Positions 51,373-54,030 of a stretch of DNA of 54,729 nucleotides are shown piece by piece. The DNA is from Deltaproteobacteria bacterium (GTDB lineage Bacteria > Myxococcota_A > UBA796 > JAFGLY01), in NCBI GenBank assembly GCA_016927815.1, contig JAFGLY010000013.1:1-54729 (forward strand), given 5' to 3'. The position numbers and the translations under genes are program-made. Below the pieces are notes generated by a model. It had not been told where the DNA came from, did no database searches, and was given only the letters and a program-made list of their open reading frames with translations. The first letter of the stretch is position 1. Each line of letters begins with the position of its first letter.

Positions 51373-51873
51373 TCAAGGGTTGGTGGGCCCCTCGCCGCCC
51401 GGAGGTGCCCAGGGGGGCGGCTCGTCGGGGCTCTCGGGACCCGTTTCGCCCGGAGCCGCTTCCGGCGAGGCGGGCTCGTCCGGGATGGGGGGCGGAGGCA
51501 CGGGGGGGGCCATGGGCTCGGGCGCGACTCCGACGGGGGACGTGCCGCCCCCGGCCATCCACGCGGCCACCTCCGGCTTGCCGAGTTGGACCACGGACAG
51601 GATCTCGAGGACGATCCCGATGACGTTCCCACAGAGCAGCGCCGCCACGATGCCCAGGATGGACACGGTCTTCGCGTTGGCCTTGTACTGGCCCTTGTAG
51701 ACGGCCAGGCCCGTCACGACCTCGAAGATCCCCATGGCCAGCGGGAACACCCAGAGCGCGCCGACGCACACCCAGATGAGGCCCCCGATCCAGCCCAGAG
51801 AGGCCAGGATCGTGAGCGCTCCCGAGAGGATCATGAAGAGACCGGAGGTCTTGTAGTCGGATGGTGCCTGCAT
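51373..51873 (-). CDS. Membrane protein with Pro-rich C-terminal tail
   Basis: The 166-residue protein has three or four hydrophobic segments (GLFMILSGALTILASLGWIGGLIWVCVGALWVF; VSILGIVAALLCGNVIGIVLEILSVVQLG) and a disordered Pro/Glu tail (PPVPPPPIPDEPASPEAAPG). The start at 51873 has GGGAG 7 nt upstream. No family function is known to me. It converges with the polytopic protein gene, six bases between stops. Confidence 0.75.
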   Translation of the reverse strand: MQAPSDYKTSGLFMILSGALTILASLGWIGGLIWVCVGALWVFPLAMGIFEVVTGLAVYKGQYKANAKTVSILGIVAALLCGNVIGIVLEILSVVQLGKPEVAAWMAGGGTSPVGVAPEPMAPPVPPPPIPDEPASPEAAPGETGPESPDEPPPWAPPGGEGPTNP

Positions 51874-51999: not shown

Positions 52000-52011
52000 G
52001 ACATCGATGTC
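52000..52011. promoter_or_regulatory. 12-bp palindrome, candidate enhancer site
   Basis: GACATCGATGTC is a perfect palindrome 67 bp upstream of the sigma-54 -24 element, a usual distance for an activator (bEBP) binding site. A direct repeat GGGTCGGCC (52029-52037 and 52065-52073) lies between. Function is inferred from position. Confidence 0.4.
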
Positions 52012-52077
52012 GCGATCCGTTCGTACGCGGGTCGGCCGCGATGGAGGTACACTGCCTTGACCGTGGGTCGGCCCCGC

Positions 52078-52092
52078 TGGCACGAACCTTGC
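52078..52092 (+). promoter_or_regulatory. Sigma-54 promoter of the serpin gene
   Basis: TGGCACG-N4-TTGC matches the sigma-54 -24/-12 consensus with the invariant GG (52079-52080) and GC (52091-52092) exactly 12 bp apart. Only the last consensus base (A/T) differs (G). The start would be near 52104, leaving a 25-nt leader to the GTG at 52129. The site is intergenic. Confidence 0.75.
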
Positions 52093-52128
52093 GTGCTCCC
52101 CGGACGATCCATCGGAAGGAGGCTCTCC

Positions 52129-53367
52129 GTGCACCGATCCATCCTCGTCCTCTCGATCCTCACTGCCACCGGCTGCGCCACCGCGGATCCCCGGGCGATT
52201 ACCGACGTGACCCCGGCCATGATGCCGCTGGTCCGGGGCAGCAACGCGTTCGCCTGGGGCTCGTACGCGGCCCTCGACGCCATGGGCACGAGCGGCAACC
52301 TCTTCTACTCGCCGTTCTCCATCGTGGCGGCGTTCTCCATGGTCTATGGAGGCGCCGAGGGGAACACCGCCAGCCAGCTCGAGGACGCCTTCGGCATCGA
52401 GGACGAGTCGGCCTGGCACCGGAACATGGGCCTGCTGCTGGAGGACCTGACCGGGGAGCACCACCGGCCCTACACGCTGCACACGGCCAACCGGATCTGG
52501 GCCCAGGCGGGCTTTCCCTTCGAGACGCCGTTTCTCGACCTCACCGCCGAGACCTACGGCGCCAGCCTCGCGGAGGCCGACTTCGTGGCCGAGGCCGAGG
52601 CCGTCCGGGAGGAGATCAACGCGTGGGTGGCCGACCAGACCCGGGATCGGATCCCGGAACTCCTCCCGGAGGGCTCCGTCAGCGGCGACACGATCATGGT
52701 GCTGGCCAACGCCATCTACTTCCTGGCCGACTGGGCCACGCAGTTCGATGCGGACGACACCTGGGACCAGTCCTTCACCCGTGCGGCCGGCGGCACGGTC
52801 CAGGTGCCGTTCATGCACGCGGTGACCGAGTTCGGCTATGCCGAGGACGCCAGCGTCCAGATCCTCGAGATGCCCTACGAGACGGGCGATCTCTCCATGT
52901 ACGTCATCCTGCCGCAGGACGGCGTGGACCTCGAGGGCATCGCGGACCTGCTGACCGTGGAGCAGGTGGACGCCTGGATCGCGGACCTGTCCGTCTGCGA
53001 AGTGGACGTGGCCTTCCCCTCCTTCCAGATGGACTGGACCCTGCCCCTGGTGGACACCCTCCTCGAGATGGGCGTGACCGACGCCTTCGATCCGGGCCTC
53101 GCGGACTTCACCGACATCGCCGACCCCGTGGAGGGCAACATCTTCATCCAGACGGCCGTGCACAAGGCGTTCGTTCGGGTCGACGAGAAGGGCACCGAGG
53201 CGGCCGCCGCCACCGGGATCGTGATGGACCTGGAGTCCGCGGAGCCCGAACGCCCAATCTTCGAGGCCGACCACCCGTTCGTCTACTTCATCCGCGACAA
53301 CCTCACGACCAGCATCCTCTTCCTGGGCCGCATGGAGGATCCCTCCGAGGCGCCCCTCGAGGACTGA
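52129..53367 (+). CDS. Serpin lipoprotein with inhibitory-type hinge
   Basis: Serpins trap serine or cysteine proteases by a conformational change. The 412-residue protein has a lipoprotein signal ending in TATGC (Cys16) and the serpin fold segments NLFYSPFSIVAAFSMVYGGA, VLANAIYFLADW, HKAFVRVDEKGTEAAAATG and DHPFVYFIRDNLTTSILFLGR. The hinge GTEAAAATG (355-363) is the small-residue type found in inhibitors. By counting from the hinge, P1 would be Glu369 (DLES); the loop is three residues longer than in antitrypsin, so P1 may shift. It starts with GTG after AAGGAGG. A lipoprotein serpin would sit on the periplasmic or surface side and may protect against external or own proteases. Confidence 0.93.
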   Translation: MHRSILVLSILTATGCATADPRAITDVTPAMMPLVRGSNAFAWGSYAALDAMGTSGNLFYSPFSIVAAFSMVYGGAEGNTASQLEDAFGIEDESAWHRNMGLLLEDLTGEHHRPYTLHTANRIWAQAGFPFETPFLDLTAETYGASLAEADFVAEAEAVREEINAWVADQTRDRIPELLPEGSVSGDTIMVLANAIYFLADWATQFDADDTWDQSFTRAAGGTVQVPFMHAVTEFGYAEDASVQILEMPYETGDLSMYVILPQDGVDLEGIADLLTVEQVDAWIADLSVCEVDVAFPSFQMDWTLPLVDTLLEMGVTDAFDPGLADFTDIADPVEGNIFIQTAVHKAFVRVDEKGTEAAAATGIVMDLESAEPERPIFEADHPFVYFIRDNLTTSILFLGRMEDPSEAPLED

Positions 53368-53405: not shown

Positions 53406-53711
53406 TCAGGAGCAATCCGGGAAGTCCACCTCGTAGGTCTCTTCGGCGGAGACGGCCTGGTCGATCCAGCCCTGGCAGGTCGAGTCCGGCGTGCCGAAAC
53501 AGATGTAGGGCTCGCAGTCGAACGTGTCGGATCCGGGCTGGGAGGTCTCCACCGCCCACTCCACGTACTGGTTGCAGCAGTCGTAGGCCTGCTGGCAGAC
53601 CTCGGTGGCCTGGTCGTAGTCGCAGACAGGGTCTCCGTCGTCACCGCCGCAGCCGGTGGCCAGGCCGGTGACGGAGAACGCGGCCAGGATCCAGAATCGT
53701 TGCCCCTTCAT
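53406..53711 (-). CDS. Small Cys-rich lipoprotein
   Basis: The 101-residue product has a lipoprotein signal (ILAAFSVTGLATGC, Cys21) and eight further Cys in a short acidic domain (VCDYDQATEVCQQAYDCCNQY), probably disulfide-bonded. It is similar in plan to the protein at 34310-34630. AAGGAG precedes the ATG at 53711. Function unknown. Confidence 0.75.
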   Translation of the reverse strand: MKGQRFWILAAFSVTGLATGCGGDDGDPVCDYDQATEVCQQAYDCCNQYVEWAVETSQPGSDTFDCEPYICFGTPDSTCQGWIDQAVSAEETYEVDFPDCS

Positions 53712-53733
53712 CCGTTGCTCCTTCTTCTTGGGG

Positions 53734-54030
53734 TCACCACTCTGCATAGTCCGTAGCGCTTCTCGTCGTCCAGCCCTTCATCGAATGGATCCCGACGCGG
53801 GACGGCAAAGCACCCATGACCGCGCCCCGGGGCGCGGCCTCCGGCACGGGGCCGAGCAGGGCTCTGCCCGCTTCGGTCGGCTTCACGTACAGCAGGTTGT
53901 CGCAGACGAGCGCGACGACCTTGCCGTCGCAGTAAAGCGCGTACTCGCCGAACATCTTGCGGAAGGCCACGCGCCCCGCTCCCTCTGCCGGGTCCACGAT
54001 GGACCGCACGAGGGTCTCGTTGCTGGCCAT
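53734..54030 (-). CDS. TfoX N-terminal-domain protein, C-terminus atypical
   Basis: The 98-residue protein matches the TfoX/Sxy N-terminal domain in FRKMFGEYALYCDGKVVALVCDNLLYVKPTEAGRALLGP. Some TfoX proteins regulate competence; many single-domain members are of unknown role. After residue 70 (EAAPRGAVMG) the sequence leaves the family pattern. An overlapping frame reads FAVPRRDPFDEGLDDEKRYG, closer to the expected acidic tail, so a frameshift near 53820 is possible. GGAGC precedes the ATG. Confidence 0.75.
   Translation of the reverse strand: MASNETLVRSIVDPAEGAGRVAFRKMFGEYALYCDGKVVALVCDNLLYVKPTEAGRALLGPVPEAAPRGAVMGALPSRVGIHSMKGWTTRSATDYAEW

Follow-up and report, generated by a model that had tools for sequence, protein, structure and literature searches.

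Sequence evidence for sigma-54 control of a lipoprotein serpin gene and its relatives in Myxococcota

Is a bacterial protease inhibitor made continuously, or only when a dedicated activator is switched on? A lipoprotein serpin gene of a myxococcotal bacterium raises this question, because an initial annotation placed a near-consensus sigma-54 promoter before its GTG start and a 12-bp palindrome, a candidate enhancer, further upstream. The window analysed here is the whole 54,729-nt stretch of DNA, which is a complete contig (C75) of a draft genome (3.99 Mb, 216 contigs, 97% complete). We located both elements upstream of the serpin, at the following positions.

52000..52011, no strand: palindrome GACATCGATGTC, class A (GACA-N4-TGTC), candidate enhancer-binding-protein site; same element and position in the paralogue
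52078..52092, + strand: sigma-54 -24/-12 promoter TGGCACG-N4-TTGC, TGGCACGAACCTTGC, from sequence; present in relatives with a strict 4-nt spacer
52103, + strand: predicted transcription start, inferred from 52078-52092 with the G of the -12 GC counted as -12
52114..52122, + strand: Shine-Dalgarno sequence GGAAGGAGG, 6 nt 5' of the GTG, from sequence
52129..53367, + strand: gene for a 412-aa lipoprotein serpin with a GTG start (PF00079, E 9.6e-107); best solved relative 8gxv (chloropin)
52129..52173, + strand: predicted lipoprotein signal peptide, from sequence; the paralogue and locus L035 share this N-terminal plan
53185..53244, + strand: reactive-centre-loop hinge EKGTEAAAATG and the loop after it, with inhibitory-type hinge residues

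The serpin and its upstream region

The predicted product contains a full-length serpin domain (profile positions 3-370 of 370, Pfam), and no NCBIfam model matched it. By inspection, its N-terminus MHRSILVLSILTATGC has a basic n-region, a hydrophobic stretch and a plausible lipobox Cys; the lipobox is followed by Cys16 (codon 52174-52176). A lipobox was also called in most relatives. The hinge carries the residues of inhibitory serpins (P17 E, P15 G, P14 T and small residues from P12 to P9). Directly 3' of the serpin lies a convergent ORF for a small cysteine-rich predicted lipoprotein without a Pfam or NCBIfam match (53406-53747, minus strand). Farther on, a citrate synthase or citryl-CoA lyase-like ORF is truncated by the contig end (54157-54729, minus strand).

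The 255-bp gap between the serpin and the gene divergent from it (51373-51873, minus strand) carries both the promoter and the palindrome. We observed that 36 nt separate the last C of TGGCACGAACCTTGC from the GTG at 52129. Both elements of the initial annotation are confirmed. The site has the GG at -24 and the GC at -12 with the fixed spacing of TGGCAC-N5-TTGC, and it is the sole exact match to TGGCACG-N4-TTGC in the 54.7-kb window. It deviates from the consensus in the G that follows TTGC, as does the site of the paralogue; an A or T at this base (TTGCW) is a preference and not an absolute requirement. The ribosome site is strong.

Conservation of the promoter in the genome and the phylum

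When the genome contigs were scanned with the window serpin, only two distant loci were found. Elsewhere in the genome, a serpin paralogue (C76:465-1691) shares 71% protein identity with the window serpin. Its promoter, TGGCACGGACCTTGC, is again an exact -24/-12 site, 34 nt before the ATG. A GACA-N4-TGTC palindrome, GACACGGGTGTC (L036:339-350), lies 65 nt upstream of that site, compared to 66 nt between the perfect palindrome GACATCGATGTC and the -24 element in the window. Promoter, palindrome and ribosome site apart, there is much divergence between the upstream sequences of the two genes.

Pattern searches gave eight exact matches to the -24/-12 pattern in the whole 4.0-Mb genome, compared to two for the reversed control, and serpin genes follow two of these eight. 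The combination of the palindrome with a -24 half-site, GACANNNNTGTC-N40..70-TGGCA (GACA-N4-TGTC as the first element), occurred in only two places in the 4.0-Mb genome, both at serpins. The remaining exact sites include ones that stand before genes whose translations read as a Flp-type pilin, a lipoprotein, a short protein similar to nitrogenase-cofactor accessory proteins and a short membrane protein (L006:1501-1515, L007, L008 and L002, on contigs C115, C121, C154 and C2).

Because the two serpin genes are paralogues, the site could have been inherited by duplication or transfer and conserved by shared ancestry alone, with no present function here. The divergence of the two upstream regions everywhere except at the promoter, palindrome and ribosome site argues against this. 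Serpins of other families also keep the site, and the sequence around it has no evident similarity. We consider inheritance without function very improbable.

We extracted 169 serpin genes across the class and the phylum, 165 of them with enough upstream sequence, and scanned the 120 nt before each called start. With at most one mismatch to TGGCACG-N4-TTGC, 41 of 165 upstream regions had a site, compared to 0-1 for spacers of 0-3 and 5-8 nt. At most two mismatches gave 63 of 165 (at most 7 for any other spacer), and perhaps three or four of these 63 are chance matches. In the first locus set, seven sites with up to one mismatch were found elsewhere in 556 kb of strand sequence. The base after TTGC was left out of the scan, and it was A or T in 56 of the 63 related sites (89%) compared to 36% in the background, as expected of real sigma-54 sites. 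Three serpins of a second genus of the same family, the only further one covered, had an exact or one-mismatch site. These counts and the exact site of the paralogue supply the conservation of the -24/-12 element that had been proposed as a check.

A FastTree phylogeny of the 169 serpins contained a branch (support 95) with 52 serpins on one side, none of which has the site, and 117 on the other, among them every one of the 63 that do. On the larger side, 63 had the site, 50 did not and four had too little sequence, so that the site frequency was 0/52 on one side and 63/113 on the other. The 50 of 113 scored serpins that are counted as lacking the site are those without a match of up to two mismatches within 120 nt. 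Site labels changed 29 times on the tree, compared to 50.5 on average and no fewer than 43 after shuffling. As a quick, unrooted tree, it was not used to infer gain or loss.

The 52-leaf branch is a second lipoprotein-serpin lineage, many members of which have Pro/Ala/Ser/Thr-rich linkers, with zero sigma-54 sites. Because this site-free branch is also largely made up of lipoprotein serpins, it serves as an internal control: the promoter follows one serpin lineage, not lipoproteins generally. A linker-motif rule for the promoter-bearing serpins gave a weak association. In one genome of the same phylum, five serpin genes stand in tandem (L234, G076:C1:3462000-3481900, and L122), and a sigma-54-like site was found at just one of them in the range searched.

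These data bear on a simpler reading, in which a housekeeping or ECF sigma factor expresses the serpin constitutively and the -24/-12 match arose by chance, the genome being GC-rich. Matches with two mismatches are indeed equally common in the window and in shuffled sequence. This reading is hard to reconcile with the conservation of the site in the paralogue and relatives, the strict spacer, the restriction to one clade and the A/T excess at a base that was not scanned. A search for a sigma-70-like promoter between 51850 and 53450 also found none. Constitutive expression is thus highly unlikely in our judgement, and the match at the serpin is more than chance. Sigma-54 control of the window serpin, as first annotated, is strongly supported at the level of sequence by the paralogue, the relatives, the strict spacer and the clade specificity.

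Upstream palindromes and the activator

The centre of GACATCGATGTC lies ~72 nt upstream of the -24 element and at about -97 from the predicted start. We scanned the sequence upstream of the 63 promoters for all four-base inverted arms with gaps of 0-20. CTCA-N6-TGAG ranked first and GACA-N4-TGTC second, each with five exact occurrences compared to ~0.1 expected. With one mismatch allowed, each type was found in 15 upstream regions (2.7-2.9 expected). After removal of close relatives, 20 of the 57 non-redundant upstream regions had either type centred 40-112 nt from -24; 2.5 were expected, and none of 200 shuffles gave more than 8. The palindrome centres cluster near 50, 60, 72, 83 and 104 nt from -24, a helical period of ~11 bp, and 0 of 2000 random draws were as regular.

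The palindrome types were discovered and scored on the same data, apart from GACATCGATGTC, which had been named beforehand. CTCA-N6-TGAG, found by scanning, drops in rank in the non-redundant set, close relatives having supplied several of its exact matches, and it is less secure than the GACA type. Other families have it ahead of their sigma-54 serpin promoters, in most cases ~72, 83 or 104 nt from -24 (L127, L147, L132, L157, L181, L133, L094 and L118). Searched across the phylum, a loose GACA palindrome with the TGGCAC pattern gave many matches in the control too, and no wider regulon was defined; the CTCA palindrome pattern found serpins but many other places as well.

The genome encodes RpoN (C14:18085-18558, E 8.9e-61) and has 19 strong matches to the Sigma54_activat profile (PF00158). 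In 40 serpin flanks (619 kb), nearly all with the promoter site, we observed no gene for an enhancer-binding protein; the same profile was positive on 19/19 control loci. Because the serpin flanks contain no activator gene, the activator most likely acts in trans. The cognate enhancer-binding protein whose identification had been suggested could not be assigned.

An alternative is that the -24/-12 promoter is real and the palindrome is the operator of another regulator, such as a repressor or an activator outside the enhancer-binding-protein family, with the enhancer elsewhere or the activator lacking a strict site. The lack of an activator gene near the serpins is compatible with this, as is the finding that palindromes of two types occur at only about one-third of the sigma-54 serpin promoters. 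The positions of the palindromes, with centres 49-106 nt upstream of -24 and ~11-bp phasing to it, fit enhancer sites. They also agree with the sigma-54 regulome of D. vulgaris, where the activator site is found no more than 100 nt away from most promoters (PMC4641369). We therefore regard a different regulator as unlikely, while giving it more weight than constitutive expression or ancestry alone. An enhancer role of the palindrome, as initially proposed for 52000-52011, is well supported by the comparison, in particular by the position in the paralogue and the helical phasing.

A model of activator-dependent serpin expression

What sequence comparison revealed of the promoter, the palindrome, their conservation and clade specificity, and of RpoN and activators in the genome is, as a whole, best explained if the serpin is made only once a sigma-54 activator is switched on. 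We consider this very probable. Sigma-54 RNA polymerase would wait in the closed state at 52078-52092. About seven helical turns upstream, the palindrome at 52000-52011 would be bound by a dimeric enhancer-binding protein whose gene lies elsewhere. This protein would use ATP to open the promoter, and transcription would begin near 52103. The serpin would then be exported, lipidated at Cys16 and retained in the envelope, where its loop would be predicted to trap serine (or cysteine) proteases.

The TGGCACG-N4-TTGC core, a palindromic site within ~100 nt upstream and a genome with rpoN and activators are shared with known sigma-54/NtrC-family systems such as that of D. vulgaris (PMC4641369). A serpin target and the GACA-N4-TGTC and CTCA-N6-TGAG sites are, in contrast, absent from the literature searched. 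The novelty lies in the target, the kind of control being known already. The open-access literature searched contained no account of a sigma-54 serpin regulon, or of a bacterial serpin linked to sigma-54, in agreement with the initial annotation, which knew of no such case.

To our knowledge, bifidobacteria have no sigma-54. The serpin of Bifidobacterium breve is inducible by protease and controlled by a two-component system, which sets a precedent for on-demand expression (PMC8012564). Both are bacterial serpins under a dedicated regulatory system and not constitutive, if our reading of the present locus is right. The two-component genes of B. breve adjoin the serpin operon, whereas here the regulator would act in trans on a promoter of the sigma-54 class. 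The closest solved structure by sequence is chloropin of Chlorobium limicola (PDB 8GXV), which shares the full serpin domain and the inhibitory-type hinge and for which regulation has been examined through a DNA cofactor; the same study notes that little is known of how bacterial serpins are regulated (PMC10090351). A superfamily phylogeny describes membrane-anchored prokaryotic serpins, an envelope-anchored class to which the present protein may be compared. It classified serpins by location and sequence and is not known to treat promoters; the words lipoprotein, myxococc and deltaproteobacteria are absent from its main text (PMC8233489).

The initial annotation had tied sigma-54 control to development, starvation or predation signals. 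As no activator and no signal could be put to the promoter, this link has gained no support. For the trigger, our guess would be protease or envelope stress, caused by prey, by competitors or by proteases that the cell itself secretes. Myxococcota include predators among the Bradymonadales and the myxobacteria, and we take predation as context only. A wider scenario, possible and distinctly more tentative than activator-dependent expression itself, is that Myxococcota have retained, by vertical descent, an ancient sigma-54 regulon of envelope serpins. One serpin branch would be wired to one enhancer-binding-protein lineage, the site drifting between GACA-N4-TGTC and CTCA-N6-TGAG. The inhibitors might then be deployed on demand against prey, rival or self proteases at the envelope, as immunity or self-protection of predatory bacteria.

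The presence of this promoter on one serpin branch across Myxococcota points to an old, apparently undescribed way to turn on protease inhibitors. An activator-requiring promoter of this kind would offer a handle (rpoN, the activator and the palindrome) on the timing and purpose of serpin production in bacteria, and the two concrete activator-site motifs could be matched with orphan enhancer-binding proteins. In a phylum with known predators, it opens the question of whether predatory bacteria aim serpins at their own or at foreign proteases.
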